Made by a program: the position numbers and the translations under genes. A DNA stretch of 64,000 bases. Origin: Idiomarina sp. GTDB lineage: Bacteria > Pseudomonadota > Gammaproteobacteria > Enterobacterales > Alteromonadaceae. This document shows, piece after piece, positions 9,142 to 63,866 of the stretch; the stretch's first letter is position 1, and every line of letters begins with the position of its first letter. The notes below the pieces were generated by a model. The model saw nothing but the letters and a program-made list of their open reading frames with translations. It searched no databases and was not told where the DNA came from. The stretch is taken from positions 183,989-247,988 of the forward strand of contig JAIUMU010000003.1 of assembly GCA_022565355.1 (NCBI GenBank), written 5' to 3'.

Positions 9142-9543
9142 TTAACGTGTTGTTGGTAAACCCGCTTCCGCCCATGCGGTGAAACCGCCCGCCACTGAAT
9201 ACACGTTTTGCAAACCCATGGCTTGCAACGCATCTGCCGCTAATGCTGAACGGCCACCCGATCGGCAAATCAGATAAATTGGCTGCTGCGCTAACTCAGC
9301 TAAAGCCGCCTCAGTATCACAATGGGCGCTTACTTCTGGGTGTTGGTGAATACGCATTTCCAACACACCGCGTGGGTAGTTAATGGCACGATCAACATGC
9401 CCTGCTGCATACTCATCCGGCTCACGTACATCAACTAAGATGATATGGTTATCGCCCATTCTATTCGCCAACTCGTGCACGCTAATTTCCTGAATTCGGG
9501 CTTTAGCCTCATCGATTAACTGGTTAGAGGTTTTAATCAACAT
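9142..9543 (-). CDS. Single-domain rhodanese (sulfurtransferase)
   Basis: 133 residues forming one rhodanese domain: DVREPDEYAAGHVDRAINYPRG near the start and the active-site loop CRSGGRS with the catalytic Cys at about residue 93. The six-residue loop suits sulfur rather than phosphate substrates. The protein would carry sulfane sulfur as a persulfide, for instance to or from glutathione persulfide or thiosulfate. It lies downstream of the TauE exporter and the persulfide-dioxygenase-like gene on the same strand, a neighbourhood typical of sulfide detoxification loci. No signal peptide, so cytoplasmic. Confidence 0.92.
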   Translation of the reverse strand: MLIKTSNQLIDEAKARIQEISVHELANRMGDNHIILVDVREPDEYAAGHVDRAINYPRGVLEMRIHQHPEVSAHCDTEAALAELAQQPIYLICRSGGRSALAADALQAMGLQNVYSVAGGFTAWAEAGLPTTR

Positions 9544-9582
9544 ACTCTTCTCACTTCTACTAATGGCTATTGCAACATGCTG

Positions 9583-10356
9583 TTAAAGCACGGAGCGAAT
9601 CAGCACAAATACACCCATAATGACTAAAAATACGGCAAACCCTTTTTGCAATTTCTGTTTCGGGAGGCGCGTACCAATGAATACACCTAAGCTGCTACCT
9701 ACTACACCACCAGCAATCATTAACCCGATCACGGGCCAGTTAAAGCTTTGCTCAGCGGCCGTTAATACTTCGTAGTATTTGGCGAATCCCACTACCGATT
9801 TCATGGTGATAATTAACAAGCTCGTACCAATGGCTAATGGCAATGCTAAACCACCTAACAACACGAGAGCAGGTACGATCAAGAACCCCCCTCCCACGCC
9901 AACAAAGCCGGTAATTGCACCTACTAACAAACCATCCATTACCACGCGAGTTACGTTTAGCTTTTTCGGTAAATCTGAGCTGAGCGCTACTACCTGTTTA
10001 CTGCTATTGCGCCACATAAATACCGCAGCGATGAGCATTAGCACCACAAACAACAGCAGTTGCCAGCGCGAATCTACGATGGCGCCGGCCCAAGCACCCG
10101 CATAGGTACCGAACATACCCGGAATACCAAATAGCCACACGTGCGGCCATGAGATTAACTTCTTGCGCATATGCAAGCTGGCTCCGAATAAACTAATACC
10201 CGCAACGATCAATAGCGATGATGCAATTGCCATCTCGGCTGGCATATACACTAGGTACATCAGCACAGGTACGGTTAATATCGATCCGCCTGAGCCAAAA
10301 ATACCAAGGCTCAAACCAATCAAGATTGCACCGATTACTGCATTCACCATGTTCAT
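9583..10356 (-). CDS. TauE/SafE-family membrane protein (probable sulfite/sulfur-oxyanion exporter)
   Basis: 257 residues with about eight hydrophobic segments and the paired glycine motifs of the family (IFGSGGSILTVPVL near residue 20 and FVGVGGGFLIVPALVLLGG in the second repeat). TauE/SafE proteins are implicated in export of sulfite, sulfoacetate or related anions. Between a persulfide-dioxygenase-like gene and a rhodanese it would plausibly remove the sulfite produced by persulfide oxidation. A hairpin separates it from the upstream enzyme gene. Confidence 0.88.
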   Translation of the reverse strand: MNMVNAVIGAILIGLSLGIFGSGGSILTVPVLMYLVYMPAEMAIASSLLIVAGISLFGASLHMRKKLISWPHVWLFGIPGMFGTYAGAWAGAIVDSRWQLLLFVVLMLIAAVFMWRNSSKQVVALSSDLPKKLNVTRVVMDGLLVGAITGFVGVGGGFLIVPALVLLGGLALPLAIGTSLLIITMKSVVGFAKYYEVLTAAEQSFNWPVIGLMIAGGVVGSSLGVFIGTRLPKQKLQKGFAVFLVIMGVFVLIRSVL

Positions 10357-10373
10357 TTCTCCCGTACTACAAA

Positions 10374-10397
10374 AGAGCCAACACTATCGCTGGCTCT
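10374..10397 (-). terminator. Intercistronic hairpin/terminator between the MBL enzyme and TauE genes
   Basis: On the minus strand AGAGCCA pairs perfectly with TGGCTCT around a ten-base loop and is followed by TTTTG. It sits between the stop of the persulfide-dioxygenase-like gene and the start of the exporter gene, so it may lower or stop read-through into tauE and the rhodanese gene. Confidence 0.5.
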
Positions 10398-10427
10398 AAA
10401 CATCGTAGTTATTGTCACCGTTATGCT

Positions 10428-11297
10428 TTACAGCTGGTTAATCGGCACTTTCAAATAAATAGAGCCATTATCGTCCGCTGGTGGCATGTGCCCCGCGCGA
10501 ATATTCACCTGAATAGATGGCAAAATTAGCCGTGGCATTTCTAAGGTTGCATCACGCGCTTCCCGGCGTTGTTCAAACTCTGCTTCACTTACGCCACCAC
10601 CAACATGAATATTATTCATTTTTTGCTCTGCTACAGATGAAAGAAATTCATGTTTTCTACCTTTCGTTGGGTAATCATGGCAAACGTAAATCTGCGTTTC
10701 AGCAGGCAAAGTAAGTAACTTCTGAATCGATTGATACAAGGTTGCGGCGCTACCACCTGGGAAATCGCAACGTGCGGTGCCAACATCCGGCATAAACAGG
10801 GTGTCGCCTACAAATGCCGCCTGCTCATTTACGATGTATGCTAAATCCGCTGGTGTGTGTCCCGGTGTATGCAATGCACGGATCTGCAAATTACCTACCT
10901 GCAGCACATCACCATCCGCAAACAGCTGATCGAACTGGGCGCCATTTGGCAGGAACTCTTTTTCTAAGTTGAACACGTTCTTAAAAATGGTTTGTACTTG
11001 TTTAATGTGTTCGCCAATACCTACTTTTGCACCAAGTTTATTGCGGAAGAATGGTGCCGCAGATAAATGATCTGCGTGCGCATGTGTTTCTAGCACCCAT
11101 TCAACCTGGAGTTGCTGCTCTTGCACGTAAGCAAGAATTTCCTCAGCACTTTCGGTACTGGTGCGGCCCGATTTATAATCAAAATCAAGCACTGGATCGA
11201 TAATTACCGCCTTTGCTGTTGCTGGATCGGCAACAACATAACTAAAGGTTTCGCTATCGTTATCAAGGAATGCTTTTACGGAAAATTGCTGATTCAT
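10428..11297 (-). CDS. MBL-fold persulfide dioxygenase-like hydrolase (ETHE1/Blh type)
   Basis: 289 residues of metallo-beta-lactamase fold. Metal ligands are visible in THAHADHLSAAP, HTPGHTPADL, GDTLFMPDVGTARCDFPGG and HDYPTKGR. The Asp-rich GDTLFMPDVGTARCDF segment is characteristic of the ETHE1/CstB/Blh group, which oxidises glutathione or related persulfides to sulfite with O2 at a mono-iron centre. The adjacent exporter and rhodanese support this over a glyoxalase II role. No sulfide:quinone oxidoreductase gene is present nearby to feed it. Confidence 0.85.
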   Translation of the reverse strand: MNQQFSVKAFLDNDSETFSYVVADPATAKAVIIDPVLDFDYKSGRTSTESAEEILAYVQEQQLQVEWVLETHAHADHLSAAPFFRNKLGAKVGIGEHIKQVQTIFKNVFNLEKEFLPNGAQFDQLFADGDVLQVGNLQIRALHTPGHTPADLAYIVNEQAAFVGDTLFMPDVGTARCDFPGGSAATLYQSIQKLLTLPAETQIYVCHDYPTKGRKHEFLSSVAEQKMNNIHVGGGVSEAEFEQRREARDATLEMPRLILPSIQVNIRAGHMPPADDNGSIYLKVPINQL

Positions 11298-11338
11298 AAC
11301 GCCTCCTAACTTGCGTTGCTTGCAAGCTTCGCTCTGCC

Positions 11339-11376
11339 TACGTTAAGTAATGCCTGCGTTAAGTAAAGCTTGCGTT
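11339..11376. repeat. Short tandem repeat upstream of the persulfide-dioxygenase-like gene
   Basis: A 16-base unit, TACGTTAAGTAATGCC then TGCGTTAAGTAAAGCT (13 of 16 identical), followed by a partial third unit TGCGTT. It lies 42-79 bases upstream of the start codon of the minus-strand gene, in the likely promoter region. Confidence 0.6.
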
Positions 11377-11387
11377 GGTATTTACTT

Positions 11388-11405
11388 ACTTCAGTGAACT
11401 GAAGT
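11388..11405. promoter_or_regulatory. 18-bp perfect palindrome, candidate operator
   Basis: ACTTCAGT-GA-ACTGAAGT is a perfect inverted repeat about 91 bases upstream of the start of the persulfide-dioxygenase-like gene. It has no T tract on either side, so a regulator site is more likely than a terminator. The factor is unknown, and it does not match the ATTAG-N6-CTAAT boxes of the ArsR operon at the right end of the window. Confidence 0.45.
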
Positions 11406-11408
11406 GTT

Positions 11409-11462
11409 GCAGCACGGCCAATCGGCGAGAAAAACCGTGCTACAACTGAGCTCCGGGAGCTC
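11409..11462 (-). other. Two inverted repeats downstream of the peroxiredoxin gene
   Basis: GCAGCACGG (11409-11417) is inverted against CCGTGCTAC (11435-11443) with one wobble pair on the minus strand, and GAGCTCC-G-GGAGCTC (11448-11462) is a perfect palindrome 15 bases after the peroxiredoxin stop codon. Neither is followed by a clean T tract on the minus strand. Together they could form a transcript-end structure or slow read-through into the downstream gene. Confidence 0.4.
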
Positions 11463-11476
11463 TTCAGGCCATAAAC

Positions 11477-12118
11477 CTATAATGTTTTCTTGCTAAAGTA
11501 CCAATCAGTGTACTGATAGCCTTGCTCTTTCCGTGCTGCAGCTTCTTCCATAGTGGCCGGTGGCGGTACGATTACATCGTCGCCTGGCTGCCAATTTTCT
11601 GGCGTTGCTACTTTGAACTCATCACTTGTTTGTAGCGCTTTCAGTACTCGTAAGAATTCATCTACGCTGCGGCCGTTACTCATTGGGTAATACACCATGG
11701 CGCGGAGAATGCCTTCCGGATCAATAATGAACGTGGCGCGAACAGCCGAGGTATCACTCGCACCTGGCTGAATCATGCCGTAAGATTTTGCAACATCCAT
11801 GGATAAATCCGCGATAATTGGGAAGCCAATTTTTACACCGAAGTTTTCTTCAATGTTACGCGCCCAAGCAATGTGGGAATGAACGCTATCAATTGATAGG
11901 CCCAAGAGTTCGCAATTTAGCTCAGCGAATTGCTCTTGGCGTGTAGCAAAAGCAGAAAATTCTGTAGTACATACAGGGGTAAAATCAGCTGGGTGTGAAA
12001 ACAATACCAACCACTTGCCTTTGTAATCAGCAAGGGTTTTCATACCGTGCGTTGTTTTCGCGTTGAAATCAGGTGCTGGTTTGTTTAATTGTGGGAATGT
12101 AACTGTTACTTCAGACAT
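11477..12118 (-). CDS. Peroxiredoxin, Prx6 (1-Cys) type
   Basis: 213 residues. The peroxidatic Cys is at about residue 50 in HPADFTPVCTTEF, and the arginine follows in SDTSAVRATFIIDPEGILRAM. The long C-terminal extension (PENWQPGDDVIVPPP...YQYTDWYFSKK) is typical of the Prx6 subfamily. Another Cys lies at about residue 69 (LNCELLG), but no typical resolving Cys is seen. It reduces H2O2 and organic hydroperoxides in the cytoplasm. It lies upstream of the persulfide genes on the same strand, but the 180-base gap with repeats suggests a separate transcript. Confidence 0.94.
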   Translation of the reverse strand: MSEVTVTFPQLNKPAPDFNAKTTHGMKTLADYKGKWLVLFSHPADFTPVCTTEFSAFATRQEQFAELNCELLGLSIDSVHSHIAWARNIEENFGVKIGFPIIADLSMDVAKSYGMIQPGASDTSAVRATFIIDPEGILRAMVYYPMSNGRSVDEFLRVLKALQTSDEFKVATPENWQPGDDVIVPPPATMEEAAARKEQGYQYTDWYFSKKTL

Positions 12119-12485
12119 CGTTGTATCTCCAAATAGACGTTGTGCAAATACAAATCACTGTTTTGTGATTCACTACATTAGCGACGCCTAATATGGTATA
12201 AGCTTATAACTTTTAGAACTATATAACTTAGATAGGCTTAATAGGTTTTCTCGATTGAATAGGAATACGGCAATCGTTGAACATTCCTCGTAGTATTGCA
12301 GTTTTATGAAGTTAATATCACTGAATGTGCAGTTTATGCTTTTTCTCACTGCAACTTCATGGATATAATGGCGGCTCAATTAACCAATAGAGCAGAGCTC
12401 GGCGCAGTAAATATACGATTTGTTGAGGGATTCACCGATCTTGCCGTTTAACAAAGCGTTACTGTTCTGAATCTAAAAAGAGCCT
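12119..12485. other. Divergent intergenic region between peroxiredoxin and Na/Pi cotransporter
   Basis: About 367 AT-rich bases without a convincing gene. They must hold the promoters of both flanking genes. One 12-base palindrome, TATAAGCTTATA (12197-12208), stands out. A 63-codon minus-strand frame (12188-12379) has no family resemblance or ribosome-binding site and I do not accept it. Confidence 0.6.
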
Positions 12486-58716: not shown

Positions 58717-59778
58717 CTACTGATTTAACAATATAAGCTCTTCTCCGAAATTAAGTCCCGCAACCACTTCCACCATTTCTGCACCGTTGTGGGTGAATGC
58801 CTCACCTAAGCGCACTAAGCGGCGCTCTTGTTGGCCATTACGCCACACATGTACGTAATTAAGCTGACCTAACCGCGTAATCGCGAGTGCCGGCACGAGC
58901 AACGCCTCTCGCTCTCCTACTGGCACAGCAACCTTGCCGTACATGCCTGGATACATTCCTACGGTGCTCTCCGGCTGCAAACGCACGTTAAAACTACGCG
59001 ACGCTGTATCGGCAGCAGGTTCAATTTCCACAACCGTGGCATTGGTTTTGCTCGCAAACACATCAAGCTTAATCGGTAAGGCATCGCCCAAACTAATGAA
59101 AGCGAGCACCGATTCACTAACAGGCGCTTCTAAACGCAAGCTCTCTGGATCATACATGCTCACTAACAACATACCCGGCGTGGCGGTATCACCGGTAAAC
59201 ACTGCCCGGCGGCTTACCACACCACTAAAGGGCGCCATAATCACGCTAAAGCTTTCGCTAGTGCGAGCCTCAGATAGCGCTTCTCGTGCGCGAATCAAAT
59301 CTGCTTCTGCACTATCACGCGCAGCACGCGCCTCATCTAATCGTGCTTCTGGCAAAACGCCTTGGCTTACCACAGTAGCAATACGCTGGTAGTTCGAGCG
59401 CGCTTCGTTTACTCGCGCCTGAGCTGCTGCTAGGCCTTGCTCTTGCTGCCGTACGCGGGAACTGAGATCATCGCTTTCTAAGCGCAATAGAATATCACCT
59501 GCTTGCACCACATCTCCCGCATCTACTAGCACCTCGGCAACCCGGGCAGTAATGCGAGCAGAAATCGACGATTGTTGGCGAGCTTGCAAACTGCCACTAA
59601 AATTGCGAGTTTGCGATACCACAGTGGTGCTCACAGCAAATGTACTTGGCTCAGCGCTTGCTACCGGAGTACGCGTTTCAGTTGGCAGCTTGCCCACAAA
59701 ACTTCCGGCAAGCCAGGCGAACACCAACGCCAATCCCAATAGTGCAGCAACAAAAACAACTATACGCTTACGATTCAT
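58717..59778 (-). CDS. RND periplasmic adaptor (HlyD/membrane fusion protein)
   Basis: 353 residues. An N-terminal membrane anchor (VVFVAALLGLALVFAWLAG), barrel-sandwich hybrid (SGSLQARQQSSISARITARVAEVLVDAGDVVQAGDILLRLE), an alpha-hairpin with the ELARTSE-type coiled coil, and the beta-barrel region (GMYPGMYGKVAVPVGER). It links the RND pump to an outer-membrane channel, which is not encoded here. Its start overlaps the RND gene's stop by one base (TAATG), so they are coupled. The pump gene comes first. Confidence 0.92.
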   Translation of the reverse strand: MNRKRIVVFVAALLGLALVFAWLAGSFVGKLPTETRTPVASAEPSTFAVSTTVVSQTRNFSGSLQARQQSSISARITARVAEVLVDAGDVVQAGDILLRLESDDLSSRVRQQEQGLAAAQARVNEARSNYQRIATVVSQGVLPEARLDEARAARDSAEADLIRAREALSEARTSESFSVIMAPFSGVVSRRAVFTGDTATPGMLLVSMYDPESLRLEAPVSESVLAFISLGDALPIKLDVFASKTNATVVEIEPAADTASRSFNVRLQPESTVGMYPGMYGKVAVPVGEREALLVPALAITRLGQLNYVHVWRNGQQERRLVRLGEAFTHNGAEMVEVVAGLNFGEELILLNQ

Positions 59779-62700
59779 TATTCATTCTCCTGTTGCTGCG
59801 GCAAGCCATAGCCTTCCGCATCTTTATACATGAGGTAATACACCACTGGAATTACCAGTAAGGTGAATAAAGTAGAGGCGGTGATACCGAATATTACTGC
59901 CCACGCTAAGCCGTTAAAGATGGGATCAAGGGTGATTACAATATTCGCTAACATCGTGGTTCCCGCGGTTAACAAGATCGGCCGTGTACGTGCCGCTCCC
60001 GCATCAAATAATGCTTCTTTCAACGTGCATGGGGTACGCAAGCGCTGCTGAATAAATTCAATCAGTATTAACGCGTTTCGCACTACGATGCCGGCTAAGG
60101 CAATCATGCCGATCATTGCCGTAGCGGTAAATAATGCGGGGTTGGGATAACCCACAATATCGGCCTTGAACATATTCAAGAACCAGAAGCCCGGCATAAT
60201 CCCGATAACCGTAAGTGGAATGGATAACATCATGATGCCAGACACCCCTTTCAGCCCGGTTTGCAGCACCATTACAATGTATACACCGAGTAGAGCTACA
60301 CCGTAAGCAATACCCAGATCTCGGAACACATCGAGGGTAATTTTCCACTCGCCTTCCCCGCTCCATACCACTTGAATATCATCGGGTACACTCCAACCCA
60401 AGCCGGAACCATTATTGAAGTAATGGCGCTGCCAGTGCGGTACTTTCTCATTGCGATCACTATTTTGGTCCACCATCACATCTGCCACCACATCGGCCGG
60501 CACGCGGCCTACCGGCTCCGCATATACATAGGCAACTGGGCGCAGATTCTTATGCAGAATAGGCCGTTCGGCTGACATTTCTACAAATCGGCCTAGCTCG
60601 GCTAATTGTACTAATGGTGCAGGAGCCGCCACGAGCCCATTGCCTTGGCTTTGTTGCGCAATTCCCTGCTCACCACGTACGTACAGCGATAGCAGGTGGG
60701 CTGGGTTATCTCTACTGCCCACAGGCAATCGAATTTCAATAGGTAGCGGGTTAATTTCCGTAGGCTGCTGCAAGTAATCGATAGTTAACCCAGCGGTTGC
60801 TGCATGAATACTCTGATGAATATCTTGCGCACTAATACCCGATAGCGCCGCTTTTTCCCGATCCACCACAAAACGCCATACCTGATATTCATAGGGCACC
60901 GAAGTATCCACTTCACTAACAAAATCTTCTTTGCGCATGCGTTCCGCAAGCACCTGTGCAGCGCTCTCTAGATCTTCATAAGGGGTTTGCGTATCACCAT
61001 AGATTTCTGCAACCACAGTGGCTAGCACCGGCGGCCCTGGAGGCATTTGCACAATCTTCAAGCGAGCACCAACCTCTGCTGCAATTTCTTCTAGTGGATC
61101 TCGCAACCGATTTACCATTTCATTCGATTGCATCGTGCGCCGATGTTTATCAGCTAATACGATTCGAGCTTCGCCTTGCCATGGTTGATTGCGATGGAAG
61201 TAATGGCGCACCATGCCATTGAAATCCATTGGCGAAGCAATACCGGCAAAAGTAGCAACTGATGCCACTTCCGGTACACGCTGCAGATATTCAGCCATTC
61301 GCTCAAGCGCCATCGCCGTAGCTTCAACCGAATCGCCTTCACGCATATCCACAATCAGTTGGAACTCATTTTTATTATCATGCGGTAGTAACTTTAACGG
61401 TACCAAGCGCATTGCCGGTAAGGCGGCGGCGATAATAAATAGGCCGGCAACGCTCCACAAAAATATCTTCGCACGCTTTTTCGAATCGAGTAGCGGCTCA
61501 AGAATTTTTCGGTAACCTTTATACATTACCGAAGCCGTGGGATCATAAGCACCGGTTTGCTTAGCCTTACCCATAATTTTGTAGGCTAACCATGGCGTGA
61601 TCAAAAATGCCGTAATGGTTGAGAAAATCACACTTACCGGCACATTGAATGCCATGGGTGCCATATATGGCCCCATCATGCCGGTAATAAAGAACATGGG
61701 TGTGAATACAATAATAATCGCCAGCGTAGACATCAGCAGCGCGCTACGAATTTCCACTATTGCCGCGATTACCGTGCGCTTGGTAGCCTTGCCACTCTCG
61801 CGCATGTGCCGTTCAATGTTATCAATAGCAGCAATTGGATCATCTACAATTAAGCCAAGTGCCAAAATCAGGGCGAAAAGCGTTACTCGGTTAATGGTGT
61901 AACCGAATAGCAAATCCATCCCTAAGGTGGCGCCATACGCAATCGGAATAGCTATCGCCACTACCAGCGCTGCTCGCCAACTTAGAAATAAACCAACAAA
62001 AACCACCACTACGAGCACCGCAACAGCCAAGCTACTGATCAGTTCAGATACTTTATCGTTGGCGGTTTCGCCGTAATTACGGATCACGGAAATACCCACA
62101 CCTTCTGGTAACCAATCGGCTTCCAGCTCGGCAAGGGTAGCAAGCACATTATCAGCCACCCAAACCGCGTTCGAGCCACGCTGCTTGCCTACCGAAATGA
62201 ATACTGCCGGAAACTTATCGGCTCCAGAATCTGCGCCCAAGCCTTGAAATTCTGGGCCAGGGTAGAAAAAGGTATAGTTACTTGCCTGTTCCGGTCCATC
62301 AATCACATTGGCAACATCACGTAAGTATACTGGCTTGCCGTTCACTACATTCACAACAGTGTTAGCGAGTTCGCCAGCACTGCTGAAAAACTCCCCGCTT
62401 TCAATTTGCACTACGCGATTTTGTTGATGCAACATACCTGCGGTAATTTGGCTATTACTCACCTGCACCGCACGAGCAATATCGCTCAATGTTGTGCTGT
62501 GCGCAGCGAGCCCTACACTATCGAGCTCAATTTGAATGGTACGAGCTTGCCCGCCGGTAACCTCTACTCGATTAGTATTCTTAATTGATTTCAGTTTTTG
62601 CGTAGCTTGCTCAGCTACACGGCGCAAAGCAAACGCATCGGCTTGCTCCGCATCCGTGCTATACAATGCCGCCACCACAATCGCAACATCGTCAATTTCA

Positions 62701-63134
62701 ATCGGCTTTACAGCCCAACTGTTGACCACTGCAGGGATTTGATCTTGGCTGGAATAGAGCTTGTTGTAGAGTTTTACTAGCGAATCTTCGCGATCCTCAC
62801 CCACATAAAACCGCACGGTTACGGTGGCGTGATCGCGATTCGATTGAGAATAAACGTATTCTACGCCATCAATTTGCGAAACTAAGCGTTCGAGTGGTTC
62901 AGTAACTTGCGTAGCTACTTGGCGCGCAGATAACCCGGGAGCTGTTACCATTACATCGGCCATTGGCACTACGATTTGCGGGTCTTCTTCGCGAGGCGTT
63001 AGAATAAGTGCAACAACACCGAGCAGCAGCGCGAAGCCAATTAAAATCGGCGGAAACGCGCTGTTTAAAAACCAGTTAATGAGCTTACCCTGCTCTGCCA
63101 ACTGGCGATCTTTTTTCGTTGTTGCACCCATCAC
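59778..63134 (-). CDS. RND efflux permease (AcrB/HAE-type superfamily)
   Basis: 1118 residues, somewhat longer than AcrB (1049). Features: an N-terminal helix, two large periplasmic loops, and membrane helices with LALGLIVDDPIAAIDNIERH (proton-relay Asp pair) and MFFITGMMGPYMAPMAFNVPVSVIF. The fold is that of a heavy-metal/multidrug RND pump of the AcrB/CzcA superfamily; the substrate is not readable. The operon context (persulfide-type ArsR regulator and DUF2892 protein) points to a sulfur or thiol-related stress substrate. Confidence 0.9.
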   Translation of the reverse strand: MMGATTKKDRQLAEQGKLINWFLNSAFPPILIGFALLLGVVALILTPREEDPQIVVPMADVMVTAPGLSARQVATQVTEPLERLVSQIDGVEYVYSQSNRDHATVTVRFYVGEDREDSLVKLYNKLYSSQDQIPAVVNSWAVKPIEIDDVAIVVAALYSTDAEQADAFALRRVAEQATQKLKSIKNTNRVEVTGGQARTIQIELDSVGLAAHSTTLSDIARAVQVSNSQITAGMLHQQNRVVQIESGEFFSSAGELANTVVNVVNGKPVYLRDVANVIDGPEQASNYTFFYPGPEFQGLGADSGADKFPAVFISVGKQRGSNAVWVADNVLATLAELEADWLPEGVGISVIRNYGETANDKVSELISSLAVAVLVVVVFVGLFLSWRAALVVAIAIPIAYGATLGMDLLFGYTINRVTLFALILALGLIVDDPIAAIDNIERHMRESGKATKRTVIAAIVEIRSALLMSTLAIIIVFTPMFFITGMMGPYMAPMAFNVPVSVIFSTITAFLITPWLAYKIMGKAKQTGAYDPTASVMYKGYRKILEPLLDSKKRAKIFLWSVAGLFIIAAALPAMRLVPLKLLPHDNKNEFQLIVDMREGDSVEATAMALERMAEYLQRVPEVASVATFAGIASPMDFNGMVRHYFHRNQPWQGEARIVLADKHRRTMQSNEMVNRLRDPLEEIAAEVGARLKIVQMPPGPPVLATVVAEIYGDTQTPYEDLESAAQVLAERMRKEDFVSEVDTSVPYEYQVWRFVVDREKAALSGISAQDIHQSIHAATAGLTIDYLQQPTEINPLPIEIRLPVGSRDNPAHLLSLYVRGEQGIAQQSQGNGLVAAPAPLVQLAELGRFVEMSAERPILHKNLRPVAYVYAEPVGRVPADVVADVMVDQNSDRNEKVPHWQRHYFNNGSGLGWSVPDDIQVVWSGEGEWKITLDVFRDLGIAYGVALLGVYIVMVLQTGLKGVSGIMMLSIPLTVIGIMPGFWFLNMFKADIVGYPNPALFTATAMIGMIALAGIVVRNALILIEFIQQRLRTPCTLKEALFDAGAARTRPILLTAGTTMLANIVITLDPIFNGLAWAVIFGITASTLFTLLVIPVVYYLMYKDAEGYGLPQQQENE

Positions 63135-63141
63135 TTACTCC

Positions 63142-63345
63142 TTACTTAAATGCTTGGCCTGGCTTAAAACCCGCTGCTTTCAAAATCTTCGCCAGTGGGC
63201 AAAAGCCTGTGAAAGCTGCCTGCAGCATGTTTAAGCCTACAAAAGCAGTTAAAATCAACCAACCTTGGCTTACTTGCCAAGCAAGTACTACAGATACTAG
63301 TACAACAATTCCTGCAAACGCGAAAACAAAACGATCAATATTCAT
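63142..63345 (-). CDS. DUF2892 inner-membrane protein (YgaP-like transmembrane module)
   Basis: 67 residues with two membrane helices (about 8-23 and 29-45) and Cys49 in [15 protein letters not shown], the pattern of the DUF2892 module that forms the C-terminal part of E. coli YgaP. YgaP also has a rhodanese domain, absent here. The genes for rhodanese and DUF2892 are thus separate in this genome. It lies just downstream of the repressor and seven bases before the RND gene. Confidence 0.9.
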
Positions 63346-63484
63346 GCTTATCTCCTTTTGGCTGCATCTTCATACTATCGATACAGCGATTGATTAACAT
63401 ACCCATTAGCGTAACCACCAACACGATGTTGATTGCCATCTAATTCAGCTTTCTCGAGTTTAGCGAACAAATATCGATACAGCA

Positions 63485-63506
63485 TAAATTAGATAATGCT
63501 AATATA
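63485..63506. promoter_or_regulatory. ArsR-type operator copy at the DUF2892-RND promoter
   Basis: TAAATTAG-N6-CTAATATA, an inverted repeat with ATTAG/CTAAT cores six bases apart. The same extended pattern, TAWATTAG-N6-CTAATWTA, occurs at 63840-63861. It overlaps the -10 element of the candidate promoter for the DUF2892-RND operon, a position that gives repression. Confidence 0.75.
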
Positions 63507-63517
63507 TTGGATGTAAA
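63488..63517 (-). promoter_or_regulatory. Candidate promoter of the DUF2892-RND-HlyD operon
   Basis: On the minus strand TTTACA (63512-63517), an 18-base spacer and TCTAAT (63488-63493). Both boxes match five of six consensus bases. Predicted start near 63480, leaving about 135 bases of leader before the DUF2892 start at 63345. Confidence 0.5.
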
Positions 63518-63522
63518 AAAAT

Positions 63523-63825
63523 CTACTCGCAGTAGATTCCGTGCAACGATTCCAAAATTCGCATCGCTTTTTCGTCTTCAATTCGATACAACACTGTGGT
63601 GCCTTCCTTACGAAAGCCAACAATTTTCTGCTCCCGCAACTTCGCTAAATGTTGGGATAGCGATGATTGCGATAAACCAACTTTCTTCTCGAGCTCACCT
63701 ACCGACATTTCACCATTCACCAAATAGCAAAGCACCATTAAACGATGGCTATTCGCCAACGATTTAAGAAGCTGTTCTGCTGCGCCTGCATTCACTTGCA
63801 TCTGCTCAATTGAAATGGTGTTCAT
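63523..63825 (-). CDS. ArsR-family repressor, BigR/SqrR/YgaV-like (persulfide sensor)
   Basis: 100 residues, one winged-helix domain: LLKSLANSHRLMVLCYLVNGEMSVGELEKKVGLSQSSLSQHLAKLREQKIVGFRKEGTTVLYRI. Cys33 (LCYLVNG) and Cys99 (GIYCE) occupy the positions of the two sulfur-sensing thiols of the BigR/SqrR/YgaV group; no metal-binding histidines of the SmtB type are seen. These proteins are released from DNA when the thiols form a disulfide or tetrasulfide bridge. The gene has its own operator and is followed by the DUF2892 gene and pump. ATG at 63825 would give an almost leaderless mRNA; ATG at 63801 is an alternative start. Confidence 0.92.
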   Translation of the reverse strand: MNTISIEQMQVNAGAAEQLLKSLANSHRLMVLCYLVNGEMSVGELEKKVGLSQSSLSQHLAKLREQKIVGFRKEGTTVLYRIEDEKAMRILESLHGIYCE

Positions 63826-63837
63826 GTAATTCTACTC

Positions 63838-63866
63838 ATTATATTAGTAAGTTCTAATTTACTCAA
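63838..63866 (-). promoter_or_regulatory. Promoter of the ArsR-type repressor gene
   Basis: On the minus strand TTGAGT (63861-63866), exactly 17 bases, and a perfect TATAAT (63838-63843). The operator copy fills the spacer. Predicted transcription start near 63831, only about six bases before the ATG. Confidence 0.75.
63840..63861. promoter_or_regulatory. ArsR-type operator copy at the repressor's own promoter
   Basis: TATATTAG-N6-CTAATTTA, matching the copy at 63485 in both half sites and spacing. It occupies the spacer between -35 and -10, which fits negative autoregulation. Confidence 0.78.

Follow-up and report, generated by a model that had tools for sequence, protein, structure and literature searches.

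A predicted sulfane-sulfur-sensing ArsR repressor and its candidate regulon at an RND efflux operon of Idiomarina sp.

Why does a repressor of the type that senses sulfane sulfur stand at the head of an operon for a resistance-nodulation-division (RND) efflux pump, and what could such a pump remove from the cell? The question is raised by a 64,000-nucleotide stretch of Idiomarina sp. DNA (GCA_022565355.1, contig JAIUMU010000003.1, positions 183,989 to 247,988; hereafter, the window), near one end of which lie genes for a two-cysteine ArsR-family repressor, a DUF2892 membrane protein, an RND permease and a periplasmic adaptor. An earlier interpretation made from the letters alone (the sequence-only reading) had proposed that a persulfide-type repressor controls this RND operon. 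The proposal is now strongly supported by a predicted, conserved operator that flanks arsR on either side and also stands before the gene for sulfide:quinone reductase (SQR, sqr) and before an operon encoding a persulfide dioxygenase (PDO).

The pump operon and its repressor

All four genes were found on the minus strand, in the order given by the sequence-only reading, whose span of 58717-63861 is correct and just takes in the first operator:

63825-63523, minus strand: arsR, two-cysteine ArsR-family repressor of the SqrR/HlyU/BigR/YgaV group (open reading frame of 100 amino acids; Pfam HTH_5, 2e-12)
63345-63142, minus strand: DUF2892 (PF11127, YgaP-like_TM) membrane protein (67 amino acids; Pfam 3.9e-13)
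63134-59778, minus strand: RND permease (1118 amino acids; Pfam ACR_tran, 1.2e-140)
59778-58717, minus strand: RND periplasmic adaptor, HlyD_D23/RND_mfp (353 amino acids; NCBIfam RND_mfp 5.6e-54, over the cut-off)

These genes form one tight operon. DUF2892 is separated from the permease gene by 7 bp (the permease has two candidate start codons, GTG at 63134 and ATG at 63131), and the permease stop overlaps the adaptor start by one base (TAATG). A 12-pair terminator-like hairpin (63944-63918) lies upstream of arsR. The nearest named permeases are those of Aliidiomarina haloalkalitolerans (84% identity) and Aliidiomarina shirensis (82%), from which the genome is judged to be Aliidiomarina-like.

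By fold and cysteines, as judged from sequence and from a structural model, ArsR is assigned to the SqrR/BigR/HlyU/YgaV group of sulfane-sulfur sensors. Its closest PDB entries by sequence are HlyU (7e-23), SqrR (3e-21), BigR (4e-19) and YgaV (8e-16), and its AlphaFold model, built on an 18-sequence alignment (predicted local distance difference test, pLDDT, 92), has SqrR, HlyU and BigR as top Foldseek matches (TM about 0.85–0.91); a model made with no alignment was poor (pLDDT 73), and the aligned model was used instead. C33 and C99, the only cysteines of the protein, align with the redox cysteines of HlyU, SqrR (C41/C107 positions), BigR and YgaV, in agreement with the cysteine pair that the sequence-only reading had noticed. 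Both are invariant in the 18-sequence alignment of relatives and both occur in 36 of 41 ArsR-like sequences of a wider set, where the five exceptions are non-Gammaproteobacteria loci or unclassified records. The cysteine chemistry of the group and its derepression by persulfide are known features of the family. The identification of the repressor as BigR proper was rejected, given that its score against the BigR equivalog NF040642 is 98 bits and the cut-off is 155; it therefore belongs to the wider group and not to BigR itself.

The DUF2892 protein scores 49.8 bits against PF11127 (cut-off 25.3) and is homologous to the C-terminal membrane part of Escherichia coli YgaP, which bears out its earlier description as the YgaP membrane module. 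Its single cysteine, Cys49 in a GFC motif, is present in 44 of 45 aligned sequences, E. coli YgaP among them, and the 45th has a gap there. The sequence-only reading also held that the rhodanese part is missing; this is right for the DUF2892 protein, although another operon of the window, with the same operator, does include a rhodanese gene (9142-9543). A DUF2892 gene of Azospira is among the most abundant transcripts and is about 10-fold up with H2S (PMC5358917). The protein of Idiomarina may carry sulfur or act as a pump accessory. A second stand-alone PF11127 gene of the same genome (L144; contig C5:96711-96887) is located near a LacI-type regulator and sugar genes and has no operator.

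A predicted operator common to the pump operon and sulfide genes

The pattern ATTAG-N6-CTAAT was derived by comparing the window with two Aliidiomarina relatives (L051 and L052). It occurs twice in each of the three species: before arsR, and between arsR and DUF2892. Shuffle probabilities, here and below, are the chance of a perfect site in Markov-shuffled versions of the region.

63838-63866, minus strand: sigma-70-like arsR promoter, TTGAGT-17-TATAAT (10 of 12 matches, the best of the region), with O1 filling the spacer
63843-63858: operator O1, which reads ATTAG-AACTTA-CTAAT on the minus strand and lies within the arsR promoter (conserved in L051 and L052; shuffle probability 0.001)
63488-63503: operator O2, ATTAG-CATTAT-CTAAT, between arsR and DUF2892 (conserved in L051 and L052; shuffle probability 0.0006)

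The pair O1 and O2 was also detected as a 25-nt repeat (80%), and the arsR promoters of L051 and L052 are, by eye, similar to that of the window. In 100 RND loci (1.65 Mb), all from other genomes, 41 of 43 perfect sites were located no more than 350 bp upstream of a gene for ArsR, DUF2892, the adaptor or the RND permease, or of a sulfur gene next to these, in zones that make up 6.8% of the sequence; with the motif-source loci L051 and L052 removed, the count is 37 of 39, and neither count is made up of fully independent sites because near-duplicate loci exist (L065/L081 and L073/L075). Nine control patterns, with altered spacing, altered arms or reversed, gave 0–5 matches each in the same loci, at most one of them near genes. 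At several loci (L034, L035, L039, L041, L199, L202 and L211), the operator precedes an RND or adaptor gene that has no adjoining arsR. The hlyO DNA of Vibrio cholerae (PMC10509353) holds ATTAATTCAGACTAAA, which by our own reading is two mismatches from ATTAG-N6-CTAAT with equal spacing; the pattern is absent from the E. coli ygaV promoter.

The same operator was found in front of a second operon of the window, which spans 9142-12192 with its operator and lies about 51 kb from the RND operon:

12177-12192: operator O3, which reads ATTAG-GCGTCG-CTAAT on the minus strand and precedes the peroxiredoxin gene by 58 bp (shuffle probability 0.0014)
11477-12118, minus strand: peroxiredoxin (Prx) of 1-Cys Prx6 type, the first gene of the operon (NCBIfam PRK13189, 298 bits, over the cut-off)
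10428-11297, minus strand: persulfide dioxygenase resembling the dioxygenase half of Blh (381 bits against NCBIfam bifunc_ST_SDO, in its dioxygenase part)
9583-10356, minus strand: TauE/SafE sulfite exporter family protein (Pfam PF01925, 2.9e-49)
9142-9543, minus strand: rhodanese-domain sulfurtransferase (Pfam PF00581, 6.3e-22)

Elsewhere in the genome, a perfect site lies 48 bp upstream of the SQR gene (best PDB match human SQOR, 4e-70), and the SQR ortholog of A. haloalkalitolerans likewise has the operator upstream. A. shirensis carries two sites in the region between its divergent cydA and dioxygenase genes, where the Idiomarina genome has two sites with one mismatch each. The whole genome contains nine perfect sites, against six for the reversed control; two of the nine are in the RND operon, and sqr and the Prx operon have one each. 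The chance of four of nine genome sites falling at these four starts is about 1e-12, a figure to be taken as a guide only because the starts were picked after the fact. A further perfect site precedes dsbD and follows a cutA-like gene (L142:2412-2427; contig C6:104411); no operator was found by dsbD in A. shirensis or A. haloalkalitolerans, and dsbD is no more than a possible member of the regulon, its site not being conserved. The longer form TATTAG-N6-CTAATA was rejected as a genome-wide regulon finder in 24 relatives, where it gave about twice the matches of the reversed control and hit many unrelated genes.

One repressor of the SqrR/HlyU type was found in this genome, as also in A. shirensis. 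Given this single candidate, the operator sites are best read as the regulon of ArsR. Control of sulfide and persulfide genes by ArsR, through a common operator on sqr and on the Prx-PDO-TauE-rhodanese operon, is strongly supported at the level of sequence, and we consider it highly probable that ArsR is a sulfane-sulfur sensor whose regulon comprises the RND operon, sqr and the Prx-PDO operon.

The pump, its neighbourhoods and what it may export

Permease and adaptor fit an RND (HAE-1-like) efflux pump. The ACR_tran protein has the Asp pair of transmembrane helix 4 (D431/D432), which is kept across relatives with one Asn, and the adaptor is present. Where AcrB has Lys940 of the proton relay, the permease has R1019, and each of the 120 aligned relatives with a residue at this position likewise has Arg. 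No outer-membrane factor is encoded in the RND operon; genes for outer-membrane efflux proteins are found elsewhere in the genome.

Clusters of ArsR, DUF2892, RND and adaptor genes in relatives also hold genes for CoA-disulfide reductase-rhodanese, YeeE-like proteins (a Sulf_transp/DUF6691 pair), small rhodaneses or SQR. Pseudohalioglobus (L070) has the genes arranged as ArsR-SQR-DUF2892-RND-adaptor, and the SQR matches a bacterial sulfide-quinone reductase of solved structure (3sz0, 7e-148). A tree of 105 permeases places the present one in a clade of 32 pumps, of which 26 have a two-cysteine ArsR encoded within 6 kb. A second, distant clade (about 37% identity, with the adaptor before the permease) has the two-cysteine ArsR context separately, and many lineages between the two are without it; the coupling therefore has more than one origin. 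A homolog at E<=1e-190 was found in 155 of 369 sampled genomes of the class. A strict one-to-one link between pump family and ArsR was rejected, many relatives having no ArsR, and the family as a whole is not a sulfur pump family. A further RND lineage (L124, L200 and L201) has no two-cysteine ArsR nearby; there, SQR, DUF2892 and/or an outer-membrane factor gene adjoin the pump. In a gammaproteobacterial metagenome-assembled genome with no ArsR neighbour, a Blh-like persulfide dioxygenase gene (L054:6680-7543) stands divergent beside the RND gene.

We propose that reduced ArsR dimers would bind O1 in the arsR promoter and O2 before DUF2892, blocking transcription. Once sulfide oxidation raises cellular persulfide and polysulfide, C33 and C99 would be bridged by a di- to tetrasulfide, and the bridged repressor would leave the DNA, so that DUF2892, permease and adaptor would be made along with SQR and the products of the Prx-PDO-TauE-rhodanese operon. 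The RND-adaptor pair, together with an outer-membrane factor encoded elsewhere, would then relieve the cell of surplus persulfide, polysulfide or a product of these, and DUF2892 would assist at the membrane. We infer the substrate of the pump and the part of DUF2892 from their setting, and we lean, with some reserve, towards this whole explanation of the locus as an autoregulated sulfane-sulfur-response operon with a pump that relieves surplus sulfane sulfur. Given that the pump operon and the genes that destroy sulfide and persulfide carry the same DNA switch, the pump very probably belongs to the defence of the cell against toxic sulfur. Whether it exports a sulfane-sulfur compound is a more doubtful matter, for which we would put the chance at a little under even. 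The sequence-only reading is thus strongly supported, by evidence added here, on the sensing class of the repressor and its control of the RND operon, but its suggestion that persulfides, thiols or conjugates are exported went beyond what could be recovered here, as no feature of the sequence gives the substrate. A dedicated persulfide/polysulfide exporter, in which Cys49 of DUF2892 would accept sulfane sulfur at the inner membrane and pass it on to the RND-adaptor pair, is an unlikely version of events. If true, the cell could dispose of the persulfide made by SQR through export instead of oxidizing it with persulfide dioxygenase.

Several observations weigh against the proposed explanation. 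The bare operator pattern is unspecific genome-wide, as the nine sites against six reversed ones indicate, and its longer form gave 22 matches against 10 for the control in the 24 relatives. The repressor stays under the BigR equivalog cut-off. The pump sequence bears no sign of a sulfur substrate (the permease has a single Cys and the adaptor has none), many RND relatives at 44–55% identity have no sulfur genes nearby, and deletion of a whole operon of Azospira containing SQR and RND pump genes left the rate of H2S oxidation unchanged (PMC5358917). In a rather unlikely but substantial alternative, repressor and regulon are as proposed and the RND protein is a general stress pump turned on by sulfane sulfur, removing secondary damage products, metal-sulfide complexes or hydrophobic compounds and not persulfides. 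It is known that broad drug pumps can be induced by sulfane sulfur acting on MarR-type regulators (MexR-MexAB-OprM and MarR; PMC11211675), and the export of metal sulfides was proposed by the authors of the Azospira study (PMC5358917). The permease is an ordinary ACR_tran protein from a very broad family, present in 155 of the 369 genomes, with no substrate-specific feature, and at least two separate RND clades have acquired the ArsR context, as expected for a recruited generic pump. The operon nevertheless travels repeatedly with SQR, CoA-disulfide reductase-rhodanese, YeeE-like and rhodanese genes, and not with drug or metal genes.

The signal and the coupling itself can also be questioned. 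ArsR proteins are often metal sensors, and tributyltin can induce the ygaVP operon in E. coli (Gueune 2008, as cited in PMC9774250), so that the two cysteines could respond to another signal such as H2O2, a metal or an organometal. We regard this as improbable: glutathione persulfide, but not H2O2, abolishes DNA binding by V. cholerae HlyU, the solved relative closest in sequence (PMC10509353), ArsR has only the SqrR-type cysteine pair, and the sqr and persulfide dioxygenase genes carry the same operator. Less probable still is a chance neighbourhood, in which arsR would regulate itself and other genes and the pump would be independent. The arrangement does vary among relatives, and some pumps have no adjoining repressor, but the second operator stands directly before DUF2892-RND-adaptor, most pumps of the clade have a two-cysteine ArsR close by, and operators precede RND or adaptor genes even where arsR is not nearby.

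The interest of the locus is moderate and lies in making the substrate question directly testable. It provides a simple test bed, with a single repressor gene, a 2.7-Mb genome, a 16-bp operator, an enzyme-free pump operon, and SQR and PDO in the same regulon. If the pump exports persulfides, sulfide-exposed bacteria would have an export outlet besides oxidation; with a general pump, exposure to sulfide could change how well marine gammaproteobacteria tolerate other compounds. Bacterial persulfide regulators are well studied, and the literature that we found shows no RND pump proven to export a reactive sulfur compound; our searches returned no RND exporter of persulfide.

Comparison with known systems

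ArsR resembles SqrR of Rhodobacter capsulatus, BigR of Xylella and Acinetobacter, YgaV of E. coli and HlyU of Vibrio in the places of its cysteines and, by prediction, in an autoregulated operon and a regulon that takes in sqr and the genes for persulfide dioxygenase and cytochrome bd. The operator differs, being ATTAG-N6-CTAAT here and given as ATTC-N8-GAAT for SqrR, and, unlike those systems, the repressor has an RND pump as its neighbour. In E. coli ygaVP, the repressor is likewise beside a PF11127 membrane part, with the GFC cysteine common to both; YgaP, however, has a rhodanese domain and no pump, whereas in Idiomarina the membrane part stands alone and the rhodanese is encoded in another operon. 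MexR-MexAB-OprM of Pseudomonas aeruginosa resembles the present system as an RND pump derepressed by sulfane sulfur and differs from it in having a MarR-family regulator, a drug pump and an operon with no sulfur genes.

Two earlier reports come closest. In Azospira suillum, Dsui_3440-3443 encode a protein of unknown function, an RND pump, SQR and an adaptor, and were strongly expressed with H2S and flagged by Bar-seq (PMC5358917). This operon is like the Pseudohalioglobus order in having SQR, RND and adaptor together, and no ArsR gene is named in it. A survey of sHdrR relatives concludes from gene context that RND pumps, too, are probably targets of two-cysteine ArsR regulators (PMC12423496). 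With the ArsR-RND pairing and a sulfide-induced SQR/RND/adaptor operon already known, the novelty is smaller than the sequence-only reading implied. The coupling is alike in the survey, where it occupies a line; the operators, the regulon within one genome and the recurrence in two pump clades are added here.

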